Of a DNA stretch of 38,507 nucleotides, positions 1,694-14,591 are shown piece after piece (the stretch's first letter is position 1; each line of letters opens with the position of its first letter). The stretch comes from an uncultured Oscillospiraceae bacterium (lineage in GTDB: Bacteria; Bacillota; Clostridia; Oscillospirales; Oscillospiraceae), in assembly GCA_947631865.1 (NCBI GenBank), contig CANRNF010000023.1:1-38507 (forward strand). The letters are read 5' to 3'. The position numbers and the translations under genes are program-made. Under the pieces are notes generated by a model. That model searched no databases and had not been told where the DNA came from. It saw nothing but the letters and a program-made list of their open reading frames with translations.

Positions 1694-3127
1694 TCATTCT
1701 CCCACCGGCGGGGGAGGCGAATCTATCAATTCGTTGTCATGAACTTGTAATTTCAGCAGCACCCGCACCCTGGTGCCCTGGTCCGGGGCGCTGGTCACCT
1801 CTATTTTGGCCCCGTGGGCGTCGGCGATGGCCTTGCCCAACGCCAGCCCCAGGCCGCTGCCCCCCTGCTTCTTGCTGCGGGACTTGTCCGCCATGTAAAA
1901 GGGCTCAAAGATGTGGGGCAGGGCCTCGGGCGGGATGCCCCGGCCCCGGTCCAGCACCTCGATACACCCGTCCCGGACCGTGAGCCAGACGGCGGCGTCC
2001 GGGTTGCCCGGGTCGTAGGCTTTGGCGGCGTTGTCCGCCAGGTTCACCACCAGCGAGCGCATCAGGTCCCTGTTGACCGCGATGGTCCCGCCGTCGCTGT
2101 CCGTATAAAGGGCCACGCCCCGCGCCGCCAGCAGCGGCTCCGCCGACGCCCTCACGTCCTCAATAAGGGCGTCCGCGCTCACGGGCTCCACCGGGATGTC
2201 CTGCCGGAGGGTGAGCAGCTTCAGAAGGGTCTGGGTGAGCTTTTCCAGCCACCGGCACTGGTCCTCTATCCGGGCCAGGGATCTGTCCCGCTCCTCCGCT
2301 CCCATATTGGCGGAGCGCAGAAGTTGAGTATGCAGGAGCATGGAGGCCAGGGGCGTCTTGAACTCGTGAGTCACCCCGCCGATGAAGAGCTCCTGCCGCC
2401 GGGCGGTGTCCTCAAGCTCCGCCACCCGGTCCTGCACCGCGGCGGCCATGGTGTTGAAATCCGCCGCCAGCGCGGCTATCTCGTCGCCGCCGGACACCGC
2501 TGCCCGGCAGCCATACTCGCCCCCGGCGATGCGCCTTGCCGCGGCGGCGAGGCTTTCCAGGGGCCGCGCCCCCCGCCGCATGAGAAGGGTGATGAGCGCC
2601 GCGCCCAGGGCCGCGCCGGCGAGGCTTACAAGGACGAACACGCCGGTCATGGTCCGGGCGGCACGGTAGATGTCGGACACGTCCTGCACGGTGTAGACCC
2701 CGTAGGGCTCGCCGCCCACATCTACCCGGCTTCCCGCGATAAAAAGCCGCGCCTCCCCGTTCCGGACCGGCAGGGTCTGGATGCCGCCGGTCAGCGCCTC
2801 CATGGGCAGCAATGCCGCCGGGTCCACCTCCTGTTGGATGAACACCGTGTCCTCCCCGTGGACGAGCACGCTCCCGGCGTCCGCGAATTTGGAAAAGCAG
2901 TACCGCACCAGGCTGTCCCGCACCGCGGCCGGGTCGGAGCTCAGCAGATAGTACCCGGTCATGGTCTCGAAGGAGGCCGCCAGGGCCCACTGCCGCTCCA
3001 TGGTCTGCTGTTCCGCCCGGTCCAGGATGGTCCTCTGGGCGTACAGCAGAAGCAGCCCTGAGCACACTGCCACCACCGTCACCAACACCGCGGCGCACAG
3101 CGCCGACGCCTTTTGCCACAGCTTCAT
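1694..3127 (-). CDS. membrane sensor histidine kinase (HAMP, HisKA, HATPase)
   Basis: A 477-residue two-pass membrane kinase. TM1 is at about residues 9-30, an extracytoplasmic sensor region at 31-158, TM2 at 160-183 and a HAMP linker at 184-240. The HisKA box GVTHEFKTPL carries the phospho-acceptor His254. The ATPase domain shows the N box (NLADNAAKAY), G1 (DRGRGIP) and G2 (GSGLGLAL) motifs. It should autophosphorylate and pass phosphate to the response regulator encoded just upstream. The ATG at 3127 lies one base after that regulator's stop, with GGAGG inside its end, so the two are probably translationally coupled. The signal is unknown; the roughly 130-residue outer domain has no motif I recognise. 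The DUF6034-like gene follows by 28 bp. Confidence 0.93.
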   Translation of the reverse strand: MKLWQKASALCAAVLVTVVAVCSGLLLLYAQRTILDRAEQQTMERQWALAASFETMTGYYLLSSDPAAVRDSLVRYCFSKFADAGSVLVHGEDTVFIQQEVDPAALLPMEALTGGIQTLPVRNGEARLFIAGSRVDVGGEPYGVYTVQDVSDIYRAARTMTGVFVLVSLAGAALGAALITLLMRRGARPLESLAAAARRIAGGEYGCRAAVSGGDEIAALAADFNTMAAAVQDRVAELEDTARRQELFIGGVTHEFKTPLASMLLHTQLLRSANMGAEERDRSLARIEDQCRWLEKLTQTLLKLLTLRQDIPVEPVSADALIEDVRASAEPLLAARGVALYTDSDGGTIAVNRDLMRSLVVNLADNAAKAYDPGNPDAAVWLTVRDGCIEVLDRGRGIPPEALPHIFEPFYMADKSRSKKQGGSGLGLALGKAIADAHGAKIEVTSAPDQGTRVRVLLKLQVHDNELIDSPPPPVGE

Positions 3128-3128
3128 G

Positions 3129-3791
3129 TCAGCGGTCCTCCAATCGGTAGCCCCGCTTGGGGATGGACTTGATGGCGTCGCCCAGGTCCAGCTTCTTCCG
3201 CAGGCCGGCGATCTTCATGTCGATCGCCCGGGTCTCCCCCACGAAGTCATAGCCCCATATCTCGGACAAAAACTGCTCCCGGGTGACGGTGAGGTTCTTG
3301 TACTTCAAAAGCAGCAGGAGCACGTCGAATTCCAGCGGCTGCAGCTCCACCGGCTCCCCGCCTTTGGTGACGGCGCGGGTCTCGCTGTTGAGCTCCACGT
3401 CCCGCACCCGGTAAACGGTATTGAGCCGCCCGGTCCGGCGCAGGACCTTCTCGATGCGGACCATGAGGGCGAGGGTGTCGAAGGGCTTGACGATATAGTC
3501 CTCCGCCCCGTCCCGCAGGCCCTTTATCTCCGAGGCGGAGTCTGTCTTGGCGGTCATGTAGATGACGGGGATGGAGTACCGCTCCATGTATCCGAACAGC
3601 TCGAACCCGTCCATCCCCGGCAGCATGATGTCCAGCAGGGCCAGGTCGTAGGCGTGGTCATCTTCCAGGGAGTCCGCCGCCTTTCGCCCGTCGTCAAAGA
3701 GGGCGTAGTCGTACCCCACGAACTGCAGATTCAGCGCCACCGCGCTGGCGATGCCCTCGTCGTCCTCCACCACCAGGATGCGGTTTTTCAT
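3129..3791 (-). CDS. OmpR/PhoB-family response regulator
   Basis: A 220-residue regulator. The receiver domain (1-115) has the acidic pair EDD at 8-10, the phospho-acceptor Asp in LLDIMLPGMDG near residue 54, the conserved Thr in YMTAK near 80, and Lys in VKPFD near 103. The C-terminal winged-helix domain (about 125-218) contains LQPLEFDVLLLLLK and RAIDMKIAGLRKKL, the usual DNA-recognition region of OmpR/PhoB regulators. The start ATG at 3791 has GGGGGAG seven bases upstream. It is the first gene of the regulator-kinase-DUF6034 operon. An 11-bp-phased direct repeat upstream (3850-3866) suggests autoregulation. Confidence 0.95.
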   Translation of the reverse strand: MKNRILVVEDDEGIASAVALNLQFVGYDYALFDDGRKAADSLEDDHAYDLALLDIMLPGMDGFELFGYMERYSIPVIYMTAKTDSASEIKGLRDGAEDYIVKPFDTLALMVRIEKVLRRTGRLNTVYRVRDVELNSETRAVTKGGEPVELQPLEFDVLLLLLKYKNLTVTREQFLSEIWGYDFVGETRAIDMKIAGLRKKLDLGDAIKSIPKRGYRLEDR

Positions 3792-3824
3792 CTCCTATCT
3801 CCCCCCATAAAGCTCTTCAGGCCC

Positions 3825-3866
3825 ATTATACCAGAGTTCCCAGAAGATAATGTAATTTAGTTGTAA
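3825..3866 (-). promoter_or_regulatory. promoter and tandem OmpR-type box for the 3129-3791 operon
   Basis: On the minus strand a perfect TATAAT (3825-3830) lies 34 bp before the regulator's start. No good -35 hexamer is present at the usual spacing. In its place are two direct repeats, TTACAA (3861-3866) and TTACAT (3850-3855), exactly 11 bp apart start to start. That is the geometry bound by PhoB/PhoP-type dimers at activated promoters. The regulator itself is the natural candidate to bind; this is inference. Confidence 0.5.
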
Positions 3867-3878
3867 TTCCTGCGGACA

Positions 3879-3911
3879 CAAAAAGACGGCATGGCCGAGG
3901 CCATGCCGTCT
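3879..3911 (-). terminator. Rho-independent terminator after the serpin gene
   Basis: On the minus strand a 12-bp stem, AGACGGCATGGC / GCCATGCCGTCT, with a CTCG loop is followed by TTTTTGTGT. It begins 18 bp after the serpin stop codon and separates it from the next two-component operon. Confidence 0.9.
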
Positions 3912-3928
3912 ACGTTTTTCCTTGCGAT

Positions 3929-5218
3929 TCAGCCCAGGTCCGTCACCGCGCCGATGAAGAGGGGCACCCGGCTCTCGCCGTCCATGAGCACGTAGAGGAA
4001 GGGCCTGTCCAGCACGACCTCCTCCATGTGGTCCATGGCGCCGGCCGCCCGCACCTCCACGGCGGTGGCCGCCCCGGCCTGGGTGCCCTTCTCGTCCACC
4101 CGGATGAAGGTCCTGTGCTGCACCTGGCTGACGTAGAGCGCCCCGTCGGCCCCGTCCGCCATGTTGGAGAGGTCGGCTTTTGCCGGATCAAAGAGATCCG
4201 CCATGCCCATGTCCACGAGGACGCCGGACAGCTCCCCGCCCCAGCTGGCCTCAAATTTGGGCAGCGCCGCGCTCACCGGCTCCGCAAGGGACTTCGTGAG
4301 CAGCTTTCGCAGGCTTTCCGCCGTGAGGCCCCGGGCGTATTCCTCCACGGTCACGCCCTCCTCCGGCAGCAGCGCCGCGAAGGCGTAGTCCCGGCCCTCA
4401 TAGTTCTTCACGAACCCGGCGGCGTGCTCGTCCTGGAGAAGCTCGTCCTCCAGGGACCACATGAACTGCGCGTCCTGGCTCTCCCCGGCGGCATTGGTAA
4501 AAGTCCCGTCCCGGACCTGGTCCTCCCGGTAAATATCCTCCCAGGTGCCGTCGAAGACCAGGGCGTTCACCAGCACCAGCGCCGCGGCAGGGTCAAGCTC
4601 ATCCAAAATGCTCTCGATGCGCCCGGCGGTGTGGTCCTTCACCCAGCCGTTGATCTCGTCCCGCGCCCCGCCATCAAAGGGACGCTCTGTGACCGACGCG
4701 CCGTAATAGTCCGCGTTGGTCTGGAGAAAACCCTCCTTCACGGCAGCGCCCGCGTCCTGGTTGAGCCATATGCCGTTGGCGACGGCCGCCCCCCGGCCCA
4801 GGCTCTCCCGGTAGGCCAGGAGGAATTCGTTCACCGCCTGGATGTCTCCGCCAAAGGCGCTCTCCATCTGGGTAAGGGTGTCCCCCGCCGCGCCGTTGGC
4901 CATCATGGCCAGGGCCTCCAATACAGACAGAGGCGACACCAGGGGATCCTCGCTCTCCAAGCTCGCCTTAAAAAGATCCAGCCCAAAGCCGGTGGCCGCG
5001 AGGGCCATGTCCTCCGTCACTTCCCCGCCCTCCACGGGCCGGGCCGTCACAGACGCGGCCAGATCGACGCCCTCCACGTCCTCTGTATCCTTCACGTCTT
5101 CCATACCCTCTGTATCCTCCACAGGCTCCGGCTCCGGGGGCGCCTCTTTCCCCTGCCGCTGTCCCGCGCAGCCGGCGAGACACGCTATGATCAGCGTCCA
5201 TGCCAACAGTTTCCTCAC
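3929..5218 (-). CDS. lipoprotein serpin (serine protease inhibitor)
   Basis: A 429-residue serpin, normal for the fold, preceded by a lipoprotein signal: the hydrophobic stretch ends in the lipobox LAGC at about residues 14-17, predicting surface anchoring. Serpin landmarks are the early FKASL...PLVSPLSVLEALAMMANGA region, the VLVNAL-F-G-W strand, the hinge EKGTQAGAATAV (376-387) and the C-terminal DRPFLYVL. Counting from hinge residue P17 (E376) places P1-P1' near A392-G393, so an elastase-like small-residue specificity is possible; this is inference. I chose the GTG at 5218, not the longer upstream frame, because AAGGAGG sits 8 bases before it and the lipoprotein signal starts there. It is likely transcribed alone, between terminators at 5268-5302 and 3879-3911. 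Bacterial serpins are known in gut bacteria such as Bifidobacterium. Confidence 0.93.
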   Translation of the reverse strand: MRKLLAWTLIIACLAGCAGQRQGKEAPPEPEPVEDTEGMEDVKDTEDVEGVDLAASVTARPVEGGEVTEDMALAATGFGLDLFKASLESEDPLVSPLSVLEALAMMANGAAGDTLTQMESAFGGDIQAVNEFLLAYRESLGRGAAVANGIWLNQDAGAAVKEGFLQTNADYYGASVTERPFDGGARDEINGWVKDHTAGRIESILDELDPAAALVLVNALVFDGTWEDIYREDQVRDGTFTNAAGESQDAQFMWSLEDELLQDEHAAGFVKNYEGRDYAFAALLPEEGVTVEEYARGLTAESLRKLLTKSLAEPVSAALPKFEASWGGELSGVLVDMGMADLFDPAKADLSNMADGADGALYVSQVQHRTFIRVDEKGTQAGAATAVEVRAAGAMDHMEEVVLDRPFLYVLMDGESRVPLFIGAVTDLG

Positions 5219-5239
5219 GCAAACCGCCTCCTTACATCC

Positions 5240-5269
5240 ATTGTAACCCATTGGACGCCTTTTTTGCAA
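5240..5269 (-). promoter_or_regulatory. candidate serpin promoter overlapping the preceding terminator
   Basis: On the minus strand TTGCAA (5264-5269) and TACAAT (5240-5245) are 18 bp apart. The -35 overlaps the T-tract of the upstream terminator. Transcription would start near 5233, almost at the Shine-Dalgarno, so the leader would be very short; this lowers confidence. Confidence 0.35.
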
Positions 5270-5302
5270 AAAAGTTCCCGCGTTTTGCAAAAACGCGGGA
5301 AC
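5268..5302 (-). terminator. Rho-independent terminator ending the Bce-like operon
   Basis: On the minus strand GTTCCCGCGTTTT pairs with AAAACGCGGGAAC and is followed by six T. It lies directly after the stop codon of the small lipoprotein gene. Confidence 0.9.
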
Positions 5303-5307
5303 ACGCC

Positions 5308-5769
5308 TTATTCTATCGTCAGTTCCAGGCTCCCGGTGAAATCCTCGGCCCGGAAGTTGAAGTAGTTGCTGCCGGGGCTGAGGTACACGGTCTGGGAGAA
5401 GTCCCCCTCCCCCGCTGCCACCTCCACCGGCTCCGACGCGCCGCAGCTCCAGATGAGCTTGCCCTGGCCGTCCTCACAGCGGATAGCCCCGGAGACGGTC
5501 ACGTGCTCGCTCTCCCTCTTTTCAAGCATGGTGCCGCCGAAAAGGCCCTCCTCGCCCGTGAAGTTAACATAATTCGCATGGTACGTGCCTGTATATTTAT
5601 CCTCGCCAAATTTCCGCTCCCCCTGAAGGGCGGGGCCGGCGGTGAGGCCCACGTTGCCCAGGACCTCCACCGCCTGGCCGTACACGTCCAGGACCGCCTC
5701 CTTGGTGCACCCGGGCAGCAGGCACCCCGCCATGAGGGCCAGCAGGCAGATGAATACGATGACTCTCAT
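5308..5769 (-). CDS. small lipoprotein of unknown function
   Basis: A 153-residue protein starting at the ATG at 5769, 11 bp after the permease stop; the longer frame upstream overlaps the permease and has no signal. A short Arg plus hydrophobic segment (MRVIVFICLLALMAGC) is followed by two possible lipobox cysteines, AGC at 16 and PGC at 21, so it should be a membrane-anchored lipoprotein. The rest is rich in beta-type sequence (TGTYHANYVNF, SGAIRCEDGQGKLIWSC) with two Cys that could form a disulphide. I do not recognise a family. Its place as the last gene of the ABC operon suggests a role in peptide sensing or resistance, which is inference. Confidence 0.75.
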   Translation of the reverse strand: MRVIVFICLLALMAGCLLPGCTKEAVLDVYGQAVEVLGNVGLTAGPALQGERKFGEDKYTGTYHANYVNFTGEEGLFGGTMLEKRESEHVTVSGAIRCEDGQGKLIWSCGASEPVEVAAGEGDFSQTVYLSPGSNYFNFRAEDFTGSLELTIE

Positions 5770-5780
5770 CCCGCGCCCCC

Positions 5781-7802
5781 TCACATGCTCACCAGCCGGT
5801 AGTAGGTCCGGGCGGTGAGGGCGTACACCACGGCGTAGGCCGCCGCGAACACCCCGAATGTGCCCAGCACACACCAGATATAAAAGTCCGTGCCCACCAG
5901 GCTGAAGATGGCCAGGACCCGGTTGATGATGGGGAAGGCAAAGCCGGTGTGCACTCCCGCCACTACCAGCGGCAGGAAGAACACGATGAGCACCTGGCTC
6001 TGGATGGCGCGCTTCACCTCCAAGCGGCTCATGCCCACCTTCTGCATGATCTGGAACCGCTCCCGGTCGTCCCGGCCCTCGCTCATCTGCTTGTAGTAGA
6101 TGATGAGGATGGCCGCCATGGTGAACAGCAGCCCCAGGAACATCCCCAGGAAGAAGAGGCTTCCGTAGATGCTCACGAAGTCCTGCCGCTCCCAGGCCCG
6201 GATCTCATAAGTCCCGGCGAGATCCACGCTGTCGTCCTCCGCCGCCTTATTCCAGGCGGCCCGGATGGCCTTGCGGGCGGCCAGGGCCGTGTCCTCGTCG
6301 TGGCCGGGCACCTCGAAGCCGTAATACTGCATCGGCTGAGCGCCGCTTGCCTCCAGCCTGGACATCCCGGCGCTCTCCCACTCGGCCGCGATGACGCGGA
6401 CAAGCTCCTCCCTATCCGCCACCACGATGTACCAAGTGCTGGTGAGGTTCGCGGTGGCGTCACCGTTTTTCATCATCTCATCCACCTGCGCCTTGACGGT
6501 GTAGGTCTTGCCGCAGAGCGTCAGGGTATCGGCGGTATACTCCGCCCGGTCCACCCGGAGCAGTATCTCGTCCGGGGCCAGCGTATAGTCCTGGCCGGTG
6601 ACACGGTTATAGTCGGCCAGGTCCACCACCATCACGTCCGCCAGCAGGTCCTGATCGCTGGTATCAAAGGAATAGTCCCGGGTAGGGTCCAGGCCCTTCT
6701 CCATCCGGTGGGCCGCGAGGCTCGCGTACTCGTACCACACCTCGTCCTCGGGGACGATGCCCGCCCCCGCCACGGCCCGTTTCACCATGGCGACGGTATC
6801 GGCGTTGGCCATGGGGATGTTCACGTCGCAGGGATAGCGCTCTGAAAGGCTCTGCTCCATGCCCAGCATGAGGCAGCTGGTCCCCGATATCATCACCAGC
6901 ACCATGGTAGAGAGGATGCAGATGTTGGCGAGACCCACTGCGTTCTGCTTCATCCGGTACATCATGCCGGAGACGGCGGTGAAGTGGCGGGTCTTGTAGT
7001 AATAGCGCTTGTTCTTTTTGAGGAGCTTCAAAAGGGCGATGCTCCCGGCGGTGAAGAGAAGATAGGTGCCTATGATGACCAGCACCACCGCCACGAAAAA
7101 CAGCAGCATGGCCTGCAATACGTTGGTGGTGGTGACGGAGATATAGTACCCCGCTCCCACGCATATAAGGCCCAGCACTGCCATGAGCCACTTGGCTTTC
7201 GGCTCCCGCTCCCCGGCGTGCTCCGCCTGGAGAAGCTCCACCGGCCGGGCCACGTACACCCGCCGGATGCCGTAGAGGAAGATGAGCAGGAATATGGCCG
7301 CGAAGAGCCCCACCGTCACCGCCAGCACCCAAACCAGCAGCCGGGGCGAGAGCAGAAAGCCCAGGGGCGCGGCCACGCCCAATATCTTCGCCACCACGAG
7401 AAAGAGCGCCTTGTTGAGCGCCATGCCCGCGATAAGGCCCAGTATAAGGCTCAGGAGGAACACATACAGCGTCTCCAGTCCGATGATCTTCACCAGGTGG
7501 CGCTTTTCCATGCCCAGGACGTTGAAAAGCCCGAACTCCCGCTGGCGGCGCTTCAGGAGAAAGCTGTTGGTGTAGAAAAGGAAGATGACCGCGAACAGGC
7601 CCACCACGACGACCCCGTAGCGGAGCACGACCTGGATGGTGGTGGCGCCGGTCATGGACTCCATGTTCGGGTCTACGGCCAGGGCCAGGATGATGTAGAA
7701 CATGGCCACGGTGAGCACCGCCGCCAGGAGGAACGGGCCGTAGCTGCGGCCGTTCTTCCGCAGGTTCTGCAGGGCCAGCCGGGAATATAAGCCCTTATTC
7801 AT
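5781..7802 (-). CDS. BceB-type FtsX-like ABC transporter permease
   Basis: A 673-residue permease with the BceB/VraG layout. The N-terminus is LALQNLRKNGRSYGPFLL with a first TM. TM helices follow at about 55-75, 105-135, 150-180, 205-222, 230-260 and 285-310. A large extracellular domain spans about 320-530, and three C-terminal TM helices lie within 540-673. LKRRQREFGLFNVLGMEKR is the typical FtsX cytoplasmic motif. BceB-type permeases free cell-wall intermediates from antimicrobial peptides such as bacitracin and act as the sensor for the partner kinase. The start ATG overlaps the ATPase stop by 8 bp, indicating coupling. Confidence 0.93.
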   Translation of the reverse strand: MNKGLYSRLALQNLRKNGRSYGPFLLAAVLTVAMFYIILALAVDPNMESMTGATTIQVVLRYGVVVVGLFAVIFLFYTNSFLLKRRQREFGLFNVLGMEKRHLVKIIGLETLYVFLLSLILGLIAGMALNKALFLVVAKILGVAAPLGFLLSPRLLVWVLAVTVGLFAAIFLLIFLYGIRRVYVARPVELLQAEHAGEREPKAKWLMAVLGLICVGAGYYISVTTTNVLQAMLLFFVAVVLVIIGTYLLFTAGSIALLKLLKKNKRYYYKTRHFTAVSGMMYRMKQNAVGLANICILSTMVLVMISGTSCLMLGMEQSLSERYPCDVNIPMANADTVAMVKRAVAGAGIVPEDEVWYEYASLAAHRMEKGLDPTRDYSFDTSDQDLLADVMVVDLADYNRVTGQDYTLAPDEILLRVDRAEYTADTLTLCGKTYTVKAQVDEMMKNGDATANLTSTWYIVVADREELVRVIAAEWESAGMSRLEASGAQPMQYYGFEVPGHDEDTALAARKAIRAAWNKAAEDDSVDLAGTYEIRAWERQDFVSIYGSLFFLGMFLGLLFTMAAILIIYYKQMSEGRDDRERFQIMQKVGMSRLEVKRAIQSQVLIVFFLPLVVAGVHTGFAFPIINRVLAIFSLVGTDFYIWCVLGTFGVFAAAYAVVYALTARTYYRLVSM

Positions 7803-11533: not shown

Positions 11534-11562
11534 TTGCATCCACCCCTCTTATCAACTATAAT
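11534..11562 (+). promoter_or_regulatory. promoter of the restriction-modification operon
   Basis: TTGCAT (11534-11539) and a perfect TATAAT (11557-11562) are separated by 17 bp, 42 bp upstream of the ATG at 11605. It supports that start over the longer frame, which would begin upstream of the promoter. Confidence 0.8.
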
Positions 11563-11604: not shown

Positions 11605-13557
11605 ATGAAAAAGTTCAGCTCGCTGCCTCAGGCCATCATGACTCTTGCCGCGCGGGCAGACCTTCCCTCGCTGACAGGACTTCTCATGCTGTGGCGCATC
11701 TATGGCGCGGACACCTTTCCAGACGCCCACACACCCTGGAACGACCTGGGGGACACGCCCCCGGAGCAGTACGCCGACGCCATCCGCCATCTGCTGCCCC
11801 CCGAGGCGGTGGATCTTTTGCCAAAGGGGTTTTGGGCCCTTTCCGGCAGCGCGCAGGAAGACGCCCGCTGTCTGCAGCAGCTGCATGATCTTCTGTCCTG
11901 TGCATCCCCGGACGAGCTCTCGCCAGCGGATATCTTTACGCACAGGCTGATCCTGGAGATGCCGGCCGGCTCCATATCGTCCGGGGATTTCTATACACCG
12001 GCGTCGCTGGTGGGCTTGATGTGCGGATTGCTGGACTTTACGGACGGCAGTCTGTACGACCCCTGCTGCGGCAGCGGCGCGCTCCTGGCCGGCGCCGTGC
12101 GTTCTTTTCCGGGAGCGAAGCTGCAGCTATACGGCCAAACGATGGATGAGCGGACGTATCGTCTATGCCGCATAAACCTGTTTCTGATGGGTCTTTCTGT
12201 CGATCTGGGCGGCCGGGCCGCAAACACACTGACAAAGGACCTGCACTCCGGCATGAAATTCGACTGGATCCTGGCGAATCCACCGTTCAATCTATCCAAC
12301 TGGTGCGGGGACGCCCTTCCTTCCGGGTCCGTGTGGCAGTACGGCGTCCCGCCGCGCTCCAATGGGAACTTCGCCTGGCTGCAGCACATCATCTGCCGCA
12401 TGGGAGCAGGGAGCCGCGCCGCGGTCGTCCTGCCGAACGGCGCACTGACGAGTCAAGTCCGCGCGGAGCGGAGAATACGGGAAGGCATTCTGCGGGATGG
12501 CCTGGTGGAGGCCGTCATCTCCCTGCCGCCCGGCTTGTTCTACAGCACGAAGATCCCCTGCAGCATCTGGCTTCTGCACAAGTCGGAACAGCCAGCGTCC
12601 AACGTGCTCATGATCGACGCCAGGGAGCTCCATCTGCGCGAAGACGGCGGGGATACCACCGCACTGACGGAGCTGGTCCTGCGCCGTCGGGCGGGCGAGT
12701 CGCTGCAAAGCGCCGCATGGTACGCCGTAGTCCCCACTGAGCGCATCGCGGCCAACCGGGCGCTTTTGAGCCCCAATCTGTATACGGCGGAGGAACCCAT
12801 CTCCTCCGCGTCCGTCCTCCAGGACCGCGAACAGTTCCTTTTGCTGACTGATCAGCTGTGCCGCCGGCTCAAAGACGACGACCTTGCCGGGAAGATCGGT
12901 ATGTGGGCCGGCGCGGCCGACTTTGAGCACTGGGAGCAGACGCCGCTGGCTACCCGATATGAGATCACCAGAGGGGTGGAAAAAAGCCGGGCGTTTTTTG
13001 GCCGCGGCGTGCCGATGGCGGACCTGAAGACCGTCCTTCGCCACCCGTTCCTCCCGGAGACACTGACGCAGGCCGTGGACATCTCCGGGACAGAAACGGA
13101 AAAGTTCCGGCTCCGGGCCGGCGATATCCTCATGGGCCGGACGAGCGAGACGACACAGCAGCTGGGCTGCTGCTGTGTCGTCCCTGAAGACCGCGCAGCA
13201 GTCTATAGCGGCTATCTGCACCGCCTGCGCCCCTATGAGGCGGGCCAGCCGGACAGCTTTTATATGGCCGGATTTTTCCAAAGCGCCGTTTACCGCAGAC
13301 AGGTGGAGCGGCTCGTCCCCGTCTATACCACCCGTGCAAACATGAACCTGGATATCCTCTCCCGGATCGTCCTGTATTACCCGGACCAGCCGTCGCAAAA
13401 GGCCTTGGGTGATACCCTGTATTCCATATATCTTTACCGGCAGCGGAGCGGCGACGCCGTCCTCAACACCGTGCTGGATGAATTTGCCCGTCTGCTGATA
13501 GAGCAGTTCATCACCTATCCCGTGCTGCGCCTGAAGGAGGAAAACGCAGAGATATGA
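11605..13557 (+). CDS. N6-adenine DNA methylase fused to a single HsdS-type target-recognition domain
   Basis: A 650-residue fusion. Residues 120-400 are an HsdM-type methylase: SGDFYTP (126-132), SAM-binding motif I DPCCGSG (152-158), catalytic NPPF (225-228) and VVLPNGAL near 275. Residues 467-610 match an HsdS specificity half: FRLRAGDILMGRT (501-513), and YTTRANMNLDILSRIVLYYP (574-593) corresponds to the conserved end of a TRD. Type I systems normally have separate M (about 500 residues) and two-TRD S subunits plus an HsdR helicase-nuclease. Here M and one TRD are joined and no HsdR is present. A homodimer could read a palindrome, as in type II enzymes; this is inference. The start has a weak SD (GAAGGGATGG). 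The stop overlaps the next ATG by 4 bp (ATGA). Confidence 0.88.
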   Translation: MKKFSSLPQAIMTLAARADLPSLTGLLMLWRIYGADTFPDAHTPWNDLGDTPPEQYADAIRHLLPPEAVDLLPKGFWALSGSAQEDARCLQQLHDLLSCASPDELSPADIFTHRLILEMPAGSISSGDFYTPASLVGLMCGLLDFTDGSLYDPCCGSGALLAGAVRSFPGAKLQLYGQTMDERTYRLCRINLFLMGLSVDLGGRAANTLTKDLHSGMKFDWILANPPFNLSNWCGDALPSGSVWQYGVPPRSNGNFAWLQHIICRMGAGSRAAVVLPNGALTSQVRAERRIREGILRDGLVEAVISLPPGLFYSTKIPCSIWLLHKSEQPASNVLMIDARELHLREDGGDTTALTELVLRRRAGESLQSAAWYAVVPTERIAANRALLSPNLYTAEEPISSASVLQDREQFLLLTDQLCRRLKDDDLAGKIGMWAGAADFEHWEQTPLATRYEITRGVEKSRAFFGRGVPMADLKTVLRHPFLPETLTQAVDISGTETEKFRLRAGDILMGRTSETTQQLGCCCVVPEDRAAVYSGYLHRLRPYEAGQPDSFYMAGFFQSAVYRRQVERLVPVYTTRANMNLDILSRIVLYYPDQPSQKALGDTLYSIYLYRQRSGDAVLNTVLDEFARLLIEQFITYPVLRLKEENAEI

Positions 13558-13907
13558 ACCGAAGAGATCAAAAATGGCTGGTAATGCTGTACACGATGAA
13601 CGAGATGGCCGGCGGAGGCGGACAGCGAAAGGACGTCCTGGCACACATCAACAGCCACGGATATTGGAAGAAAAACGACTCCAACGACGTCATCCGCCCC
13701 TCCCGCGCCGATCGCCATGAGTACGTCTGGCGCAACGACTTTTCTTATGAGCGGCGGCACCTGGTGGATGCAGGATATATGCAGCCGGGCGGGAAAGGCG
13801 TTTGGAAGATCACCGACAGCGGCAGGCGGCATCTGCCGGCGCTGATCAGCCAGGCCAAGGAGCAGGCAGCTGATACCGACGCCGGTTATACGGTCTCTTT
13901 TTTTTGA
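13554..13907 (+). CDS. winged-helix protein, N-terminal part of a probable wH-HNH nuclease
   Basis: A 117-residue frame coupled to the methylase by an ATGA overlap. It looks like the N-terminal winged helix of Mrr-type restriction proteins (LVMLYTMNEM..., GQRKDVLAHI, then WKITDSGRRHLPALI near 90-104). It ends within the 8-T tract at 13898-13905 by TGA. If one T is dropped, translation passes without a stop into the HNH frame, giving a 289-residue protein. The downstream part has no start with a Shine-Dalgarno of its own, so the two frames probably form one gene that is off, slippage-dependent or mutated here. A 117-residue stand-alone DNA-binding protein is the alternative. Confidence 0.75.
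   Translation: MNRRDQKWLVMLYTMNEMAGGGGQRKDVLAHINSHGYWKKNDSNDVIRPSRADRHEYVWRNDFSYERRHLVDAGYMQPGGKGVWKITDSGRRHLPALISQAKEQAADTDAGYTVSFF
13898..13905 (+). other. 8-T homopolymer at the frame junction of the nuclease gene
   Basis: Eight consecutive T end the winged-helix frame as TCT TTT TTT TGA. With seven T the reading would be TCT TTT TTT GAA AAG and stay open to 14424. The site could be a phase-variable slippage tract, a transcriptional slippage site or a plain frameshift. Confidence 0.8.
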
Positions 13908-14424
13908 AAAGCTCTGGGATGAGCAGGAGCTGATCGACGATTTTGAGCAGGATCAGCAACTGAACCGACAGCTATCCGCGGGAGAGATTCCGGAGCCAAA
14001 AACGCTGCCGGACCTGACAGACGACCCTATGCTGACCGCGGCCCCAGCAGCGCGCAGCGGAGGATGTCATGCCTATCCGCGCGATCCTGCCGTGTCCCTG
14101 GCCGCGCGGAAACGCGCGCAATATCTCTGTCAGATCGATCCGGCGCACAAGTCGTTCCTGCGCCGCGACGGGCAGGCAATGTATGTAGAAACGCACCATC
14201 TCATCCCCATGTCGACGACAGACTACTACCATGTGAACCTGGATCGGGAACAGAACATCGTCTGTCTGTGCAGCACCTGCCACAACCAGATACATTACGG
14301 CCGTAAGGAAGACGTAAAACCCATGCTGGAAAAACTGTTCCTGTCCCGGCAGCAGTCTATATGCGCCATCCTGGGGCAGGACATATCTCTGGACGAGCTG
14401 TTCCGGATCTACAAAGTCCTGTGA
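13906..14424 (+). CDS. HNH endonuclease domain, C-terminal part of a probable wH-HNH nuclease
   Basis: The +1 frame relative to the winged-helix ORF is open for 172 codons from the T tract to TGA at 14422. It opens with an acidic linker (EKLWDEQELIDDFEQDQQ) and then an HNH domain: YVETHHLIPM (His pair), LDREQNIVCLCSTCHNQIHYG with the central Asn, the CxxC and the final His. The first ATG (14029) has no Shine-Dalgarno and would cut off the linker, so independent translation is unlikely. HNH domains are metal-dependent nucleases used by many restriction enzymes. Given the methylase with its own TRD just upstream, this is the likely restriction partner. I mark it as a gene part rather than a pseudogene because the frame may be restored by slippage. 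Confidence 0.8.
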   Translation, partial: EKLWDEQELIDDFEQDQQLNRQLSAGEIPEPKTLPDLTDDPMLTAAPAARSGGCHAYPRDPAVSLAARKRAQYLCQIDPAHKSFLRRDGQAMYVETHHLIPMSTTDYYHVNLDREQNIVCLCSTCHNQIHYGRKEDVKPMLEKLFLSRQQSICAILGQDISLDELFRIYKVL

Positions 14425-14468: not shown

Positions 14469-14497
14469 TTGCAACCTGCCACGCCATCGGCTATAAT
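14469..14497 (+). promoter_or_regulatory. promoter of tRNA-Leu
   Basis: TTGCAA (14469-14474), a 17-bp spacer and TATAAT (14492-14497), 11 bp before the mature 5' end. Confidence 0.85.
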
Positions 14498-14508
14498 AGC
14501 TCTATTGC

Positions 14509-14591
14509 GCGGGTATGGTGGAATTGGCAGACACGCTGGATTTAGGTTCCAGTGGGCGACCGTGGGAGTTCAAATCTCCCTACCCGCACCA
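14509..14591 (+). tRNA. tRNA-Leu, anticodon UAG
   Basis: The acceptor stem GCGGGTA / TACCCGC is perfect. The anticodon stem CTGGA / TCCAG encloses TTTAGGT with anticodon TAG, reading CUA and other CUN codons. The T arm is GGGAG-TTCAAAT-CTCCC and the CCA end is encoded (14589-14591). The longer variable region fits a class II tRNA. It lies between the restriction operon and pheS. Confidence 0.95.

Follow-up and report, generated by a model that had tools for sequence, protein, structure and literature searches.

A 38.5-kb window, meaning the whole stretch of DNA analysed here (38,507 nucleotides of contig CANRNF010000023.1 from an uncultured Oscillospiraceae bacterium), carries at 11605..14424 two overlapping genes that probably form a self-contained, horizontally moving restriction-modification system of type II-like organization. 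The first gene encodes an N6-adenine methylase fused to a target-recognition domain (TRD), and the second a nuclease composed of a winged helix (wH) and an HNH domain; all window features described below lie on the forward (+) strand. An earlier note on this DNA had proposed an ATP-independent, type II-like system built from type I parts, and this is still the best reading, given the absence of HsdR from the pair's contig; cleavage by the nuclease is a step that we infer.

Recurrence of the gene pair

The fusion and wH-HNH pair was found in five further genomes (G030, G521, G1219, G1238 and G215), giving six copies together with that of the window's own genome (G000), all within the window's class, Clostridia. 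Whether the pair recurs together, a test that the earlier note had proposed, can be answered in the affirmative: every wH-HNH gene of this kind that was found (6/6) stands directly behind a methylase-TRD fusion gene. The gene overlap is the four-nucleotide ATGA in five copies and eight nucleotides with a GTG start codon in G1238. Methylase and endonuclease genes are thus linked as one unit in all copies, as in type II systems, and the stand-alone gene without a partner methylase that characterizes type IV systems was seen in none of the six.

The copies were collected in searches of genome samples that overlap one another (99, 391, 400, 370 and 398 genomes). When the fusion was searched against 99 genomes, 18 gave some match, the window's own included, and apart from the window only the match in G030 reached through the TRD (71%, residues 104-648). 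In G030 the genes for the fusion (550 aa) and the wH-HNH protein (283 aa) occupy the same genomic slot as in the window; the isolate name (Lapin) suggests a rabbit gut origin. The G030 nuclease matched 8 of 391 genomes of the class, again including the window's, and one more match was full length, that of G521, where the fusion is 563 aa and the wH-HNH protein 288 aa long. Six of 400 family members matched in a profile search, in two pieces in G000, full length in G030, G1219 and G1238, and restricted to the HNH half in G1289 and G1309; the fusion precedes the nuclease in both G1219 and G1238. Among 370 members of the order, four matched, namely G000 and G215, together with G151 and G061, whose matches are confined to the HNH part. 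In G215 the winged-helix part stops at a contig end behind the fusion, and the final 60 bases recur at the end of the contig bearing the HNH part. Among 398 members of the phylum, nine matched, G000 and eight others with the HNH part only. A genome-wide scan with a strict peptide pattern, too narrow for a census, returned two loci (G030 and G521).

The TRDs could be aligned end to end across all six copies (27-72% identity), and the winged helices could likewise be aligned throughout (34-73% identity). This whole-length alignment of both putative DNA-reading parts fits, without proving, a single target shared by the two enzymes.

No HsdR or separate HsdS matched beside the pair

Type I systems combine HsdR with HsdM and with an HsdS that is a protein of its own bearing two TRDs, and no such arrangement was found around the pair. 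In none of the six genomes did HSDR_N match the contig that carries the pair (contig 23 in G000, 18 in G030 and 11 in G521), and it was matched nowhere in G1219, G1238 and G215, as judged by family matches in draft genomes that are 92-97% complete. The earlier note's statement that the operon has no HsdR therefore holds for the contig in all copies and for the whole genome in three. Because HSDR_N is absent from these three genomes, an HsdR acting in trans was dropped as a general requirement, which slightly raised our confidence in a type II-like system. A unit that is self-contained without HsdR, and in which no translocase appears to be required, judging by the absence of family matches in the drafts, is best read as ATP-independent and type II-like.

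Methylase_S was matched on other contigs in G000, G030, G1238 and G215, nowhere in G1219, and on the pair's contig in none of the five genomes searched (G521 was outside this search); the Methylase_S genome scan likewise fails to pick up the TRDs fused to the methylases of the pairs, and is therefore no test for unusual TRDs. The earlier note had reasoned that its proposal would fall if homologues of the fusion always occurred with hsdR or a separate hsdS. They do not, and G1219 has a match to neither family. The window's own assembly (87% complete, 150 contigs) also contains, on contig 14 at 3072-7794 (L002, L059), an HsdM-like frame, two Methylase_S domains and HsdR, apparently a canonical type I system.

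The methylase-TRD fusion

The fusion gene (11605..13557) encodes a 650-aa protein which, from its open reading frame (ORF) and its Pfam and PADLOC matches, is predicted to be a γ-class N6-adenine methylase with one TRD. The methylase core, residues 125-399 (11977..12801), matches Pfam N6_Mtase (E 3.4e-61) and carries the DPCCGSG (S-adenosylmethionine) and NPPF (catalytic) motifs. The HsdS-like TRD, residues 436-612 (12910..13440), was recognized by PADLOC Specificity_I models at about these residues (best E 2.3e-13), and the PADLOC model MTase_I spans methylase and TRD (residues 120-633, E 1.6e-77). These matches agree with the earlier description of one polypeptide joining an HsdM-type methylase to a single HsdS-type TRD. 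Pfam Methylase_S has no match on the fusion protein of the window and matches its homologue in G521 (E 1.6e-9); the NCBIfam matches (hsdM, a specificity subunit) are all under the curated cut-offs, and the top-scoring solved chains are HsdM-like methylases (7vru, 3khk, and 7bst of EcoR124II). Homodimeric γ-class methyltransferases (γ-MTases) are built in this way, one chain holding a γ-class catalytic domain (NPPF) and, after it, a single HsdS-like TRD. Type IIG enzymes differ: in them a nuclease domain lies N-terminal to the γ-MTase in one polypeptide, and the nuclease here is a separate gene.

Past the TRD, about 40 residues follow in the six-copy alignment. In the window this C-terminal tail comprises residues 613-650 (13441..13554), and it may be the counterpart of the HsdS spacer or dimerization helix.

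Residues 1-124 (11605..11976), delimited in the six-copy alignment, form an N-terminal extension that matches no Pfam family, the HsdM N-terminal domain included. Such an extension is present on four of the six fusions (those of the window, G1219, G1238 and G215, the last three lying at L182 5845-7914, L183 6024-8063 and L191 2435-4474) and absent from G030 and G521. It is roughly 100-150 residues long, and no Pfam match was obtained for it in the proteins of the window, G1219 or G1238. The window extension shares 17-23% identity with the other three across 116-120 columns, a level at which homology is unsupported.

The nuclease gene and its T8 tract

The nuclease gene begins within the ATGA at 13554-13557, where it overlaps the fusion gene as the earlier note had described. 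Its winged-helix part (13554..13907, 117 aa; assigned by Pfam and alignment) matches Mrr_N above the Pfam cut-off (E 2.6e-8). Its HNH part (13906..14424, 172 aa), in another frame, matches Pfam HNH (E 1.9e-5) and HNH_2 (E 1.6e-5) and, among solved chains, EcoKMcrA (6ghc; E 2.8e-8, or 6.6e-12 with a family profile). A winged helix followed by an HNH domain was thus correctly read from the letters, and the two pieces lie in different frames, so the "289-residue" wH-HNH protein that had been restored on paper has no single open frame in the window (117 + 172 aa). A single open frame of 278-288 aa does exist in four relatives (283 aa in G030, 288 in G521, 283 in G1219 and 278 in G1238), and in G215 the frame is interrupted by the contig end. 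The winged helix and HNH domain are therefore joined in one chain in these four relatives, as in type IV wH-HNH enzymes, and stand in two frames in the window. Mrr_N exceeds the Pfam cut-off in G030, G1219 and G1238, and HNH does so in G030. An AlphaFold model of the G030 nuclease, made from two sequences, has a predicted local distance difference test score (pLDDT) of about 80 over most of residues 1-100, and of 43-50 at residues 41-60.

The two frames diverge at a tract of eight T residues (T8, 13898..13905), which is the longest homopolymer and the sole run of eight in the 38.5-kb window. The nuclease genes of the five relatives contain no run of eight; their longest runs are 6-7. Programmed frameshifting at T8 was considered and is disfavoured, since no relative has the run and four have one open frame; on the same grounds, the shift in frame is more readily explained by damage to the gene, by faulty assembly or by a switch specific to this strain. 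The HNH piece of the window retains its motif residues and contains no further stop. The window nuclease is thus disabled by mutation, switched off or misassembled, and in this strain the T8 tract may turn only the nuclease on and off.

Genomic slot, promoter and neighbours

The pair is preceded by a promoter, TTGCAT-17-TATAAT (11534..11562), in line with the promoter that the earlier note had seen before the operon; its -10 element is perfect and its -35 element matches at 3/6 positions, which is why a consensus scan did not list it. The slot occupied by the pair was defined as the interval between a cytidylate-kinase-like gene, named from a reading of its protein, and a tRNA-Leu gene (14509..14591) that forms its right edge. 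The kinase-like gene was found in 31 of 35 genomes of the genus (32 places), and 30 places were compared. The slot is empty in 24 of them, with the tRNA-Leu divergent and 116-172 bp (median 153) from the kinase-like start codon, and occupied in the window and G030; four loci could not be assigned (L072, with 153 bases left, and L077-L079, with no tRNA-Leu within 1.5 kb). Three aligned empty slots contain a single TTGCA-TATAAT promoter ahead of the tRNA-Leu. Both occupied slots contain two promoters, of which the one continuous with the kinase flank, homologous to the empty-slot tRNA-Leu promoter, precedes the fusion, and the second (TTGCAA-17-TATAAT, 14469..14497 in the window) precedes the tRNA-Leu behind the insert. 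In this genus the unit thus lies between tRNA-Leu and its former promoter, placed for transcription from that promoter.

The other four pairs are sited elsewhere. Pfam matches for 10 neighbouring proteins identified a response regulator and PheT at the window pair, RACo and PLD proteins in G1219, an EF-G and a PEP-hydrolase-like protein in G1238, a pyridoxal-phosphate enzyme in G215 and, in G521, a coupling protein and a serine recombinase, together with one 213-aa protein without a Pfam match. The conjugation coupling protein and serine recombinase flanking the G521 pair (L057 1-1851 and 6199-7809) suggest an integrative conjugative element. Genes for tRNA-Leu in G1238 (L183 8706-8792) and tRNA-Arg in G215 (L191 2026-2102) lie ahead of the pair, which may be chance.

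Comparison of the window with G030 gave ratios of nonsynonymous to synonymous substitution (ω) of 0.36 for the methylase, 0.37 for the TRD, 0.34 for the winged helix and 0.46 for the HNH piece, and of 0.06 and 0.09 for the flanking kinase and pheS genes. The flanks have a synonymous divergence (dS) of 0.25-0.27, the four domains one of 0.47-0.57 and the tail one of 0.28, and GC content at third codon positions (GC3) is 0.70-0.77 in the pair against 0.92 in pheT. The ω, dS and GC3 values are consistent with a foreign cassette under purifying selection.

Occurrence of the HNH half and of the fusion in other contexts

The HNH half is frequent in combination with other N-terminal halves. In plasmids, 1391 records match P0004, none over more than 80% of the query, and in plasmids and phages, among the matches listed, the HNH half and its adjoining linker alone are matched. 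At 17 loci where the HNH module carries another N-terminal half (L027, L028, L029, L031, L033, L036, L037, L043, L044, L046-L050, L184, L185 and L192), no methylase-TRD fusion adjoins, suggesting that coupling to the fusion goes with the Mrr_N winged helix. No ORF matching both methylase and TRD profiles was present at the first fourteen loci, L184 or L185, and L192 was judged by annotation; the check covered 1.5-4 kb, less at contig ends, so a fusion with an unrelated TRD or at a greater distance would escape it. A Pfam scan of five of these HNH proteins found SRA in that of L184, MrcB_N in that of L192 and HNH alone in three. At L185 (4490-7752), an N6_N4_Mtase gene is found 1.3 kb away from the HNH protein, whose N-terminal half is again a different one; methylase partnerships of other types may therefore exist for such HNH proteins. 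The plasmid place H35 (86% of the query) was considered as a counter-example and rejected, because it combines MrcB_N, not Mrr_N, with HNH; no methylase is annotated there within 4 kb.

A phage origin was likewise rejected, scans of viral contigs with the nuclease and with the winged-helix alignment having given no relative. The same scan with the fusion alignment gave 111 relatives, and at the best 80 of these 111 loci no ORF matched three-sequence wH or HNH profiles, which a diverged copy could escape. One IMG/VR contig (L159, 3551-9143) carries a different fused system, in which a 722-aa HsdM-TRD-like fusion is followed by an overlapping 265-aa frame without a Pfam match and then by an 877-aa DEAD/ResIII helicase frame.

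Proposed mechanism and alternative explanations

In the model that we favour, the first gene would supply a γ-class N6-methyladenine (m6A) methylase with its own single TRD. By analogy with M.XmnI, M.DrdI and M.XcmI, two copies of the fusion would probably pair head to head through their C-terminal tails and methylate an interrupted palindrome. The overlapping second gene is probably translationally coupled to the first. Its product would act without ATP, the Mrr_N winged helix binding DNA and the EcoKMcrA-like HNH domain cutting the unmethylated site, with cutting blocked by the m6A mark of the fusion. The genome of the window, as assembled, would possess the methylase with a disabled partner.

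Several observations weigh against this model. Only six copies were found, in a single class, and the window's own nuclease gene has a disrupted frame. The Mrr_N match falls under the Pfam cut-off in G521, HNH falls just under it in G521, G1219 and G1238, and the HNH part of the AlphaFold model has a pLDDT mostly below 50; no claim was built on that model. HSDR_N is matched away from the pair in G000 (contigs 14 and 28), G030 (contigs 22 and 37) and G521 (contig 6), both G030 matches and the second of G000 being weak. The ω of the whole fusion is 0.44 and that of its last 38 codons 0.61, and the flanking genes have an ω that is lower than the unit's by a factor of 4-8. Lastly, the nuclease has several ties to methyl-sensing enzymes, and these are also what speaks for a different explanation, in which it is a methylation-dependent (type IV) nuclease directed at foreign methylated DNA and the methylase marks a motif that the nuclease does not read. 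The HNH half is closest to EcoKMcrA, the top PADLOC nuclease match is the type IV model mREase_IV, some relatives of the HNH half bear SRA (L184) or MrcB_N (L192) domains, and both the Mrr_N winged helix and the published wH-HNH proteins are tied to methylation-dependent cutting (PMC11037411, PMC12707154). Among seven wH-HNH proteins of less than 300 aa in Dam+ E. coli, six were more or less toxic (four strongly, two mildly) and one was not (PMC11037411, Table 1); none of the seven is listed there as active in vitro, and in the same paper 87% of more than 1,000 wH fusions have no methylase within three genes. The wH nuclease EcoKMrr is sensitive in vivo to N6-methyladenine (there 6mA) and 5-methylcytosine (5mC) marks (PMC12707154). 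In view of the links of the published wH-HNH proteins and of EcoKMrr to methylated DNA, the type IV explanation was retained, and we consider it unlikely: all six copies overlap one fusion family, which a stand-alone enzyme would not need, and the winged helix has no sequence match to DpnI or other solved methyl-sensing winged helices, whose fold it may nonetheless share.

It is more improbable still that the fusion alone reads DNA and recruits a non-specific wH-HNH protein, in the manner of a split type IIG/IIB-like or an HsdR-less type I-like complex, although the gene overlap would suit such recruitment and a winged helix need not contact DNA, that of FokI appearing not to touch it (PMC11037411). 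A further explanation concerns this strain only and is compatible with the type II-like system in the relatives, namely that the locus in the window is in decay, its m6A methylase left on its own beside a dead nuclease. As it does not compete with the explanation for the family, its probability was set separately, and we regard it as a possibility of lesser weight. The disrupted frame would fit decay, and so would a slight relaxation of constraint in the HNH piece (ω 0.46), but the frame is open in G030, G521, G1219 and G1238 and split merely by the contig end in G215, the HNH piece of the window keeps its motif residues without a further stop, and assembly errors are expected at homopolymers.

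We tentatively raise, as a rather doubtful proposal, that an Mrr_N-HNH protein has been converted into a conventional restriction enzyme whose cutting the partner's m6A blocks, or is steered by a methylase-TRD dimer in place of HsdR. Its lineage includes other members with methyl-sensor-type domains (SRA, MrcB_N), and the wH-HNH build has so far been tied to methylated DNA. The unit would then connect type IV nucleases with homodimeric γ-MTases and with type I systems. If the type II-like reading is true, the wH-HNH build, beyond detecting methylated DNA, could also do the cutting in an ordinary self/non-self system. The pairs of G030, G521, G1219 and G1238 offer open-frame material to ask whether one winged-helix fold recognizes the presence of a methyl mark or the lack of one, and a compact pair with an uncharacterized wH-HNH cutter might yield restriction enzymes for studies of uncultured gut bacteria.

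Comparison with known systems

Single-chain γ-MTases that combine a catalytic domain with one TRD have been described, and among them M.XmnI, M.DrdI and M.XcmI are homodimeric and, acting as dimers, likely recognize interrupted palindromes (PMC3874165). The earlier note had proposed this mechanism for the fusion. The pair resembles these three in its γ-class domain, in its HsdS-resembling TRD within one chain and in its separate restriction enzyme partner, and differs in that the partner is a wH-HNH nuclease; the likeness is one of described architecture, drawn without sequence comparison.

The HNH half of the nuclease places it near EcoKMcrA (6ghc), which has a similar C-terminal half; the N-terminal half is Mrr_N here and NEco there. 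We know of no methylase coupled to EcoKMcrA. NEco is a 5mC sensor (PMC11037411). The same paper describes wH-HNH enzymes of 224-283 aa (SruGXI, HspR68I and others) as 6mA-dependent type IV enzymes, and reports 47 PUA-wH-HNH or wH-HNH cases within 10 kb of Eco57I-like MTases. SruGXI and HspR68I share with our nuclease a winged helix followed by an EcoKMcrA-like HNH domain and a similar protein size. The tested enzymes are associated with Dam-methylated DNA, and most wH fusions have no methylase beside them; the genes found here overlap a methylase gene in 6/6 copies, a comparison made by description only.

The fusion is also like type I M-S fusions (the PADLOC model MTase_I, PDLC03019; a Streptomyces plasmid gene named "subunit M/S"; L159) in joining an HsdM-like core and a TRD in one chain. 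Unlike type I systems, it has no HsdR on its contig. The three Streptomyces plasmid fusions inspected have no annotated HNH neighbour, and the L159 fusion precedes a helicase/ResIII frame, both unlike the pair. A literature search, which did not extend to REBASE, found in the passages that it covered no description of a methylase-TRD fusion coupled to a wH-HNH protein. The earlier note knew of no described family with this exact layout; the fusion by itself is known from homodimeric γ-MTases (PMC3874165), PADLOC MTase_I and the plasmid "subunit M/S" gene, and wH-HNH proteins are known as well (PMC11037411). Each half has already been described, and the unusual part is the pairing of the fusion with a wH-HNH nuclease.

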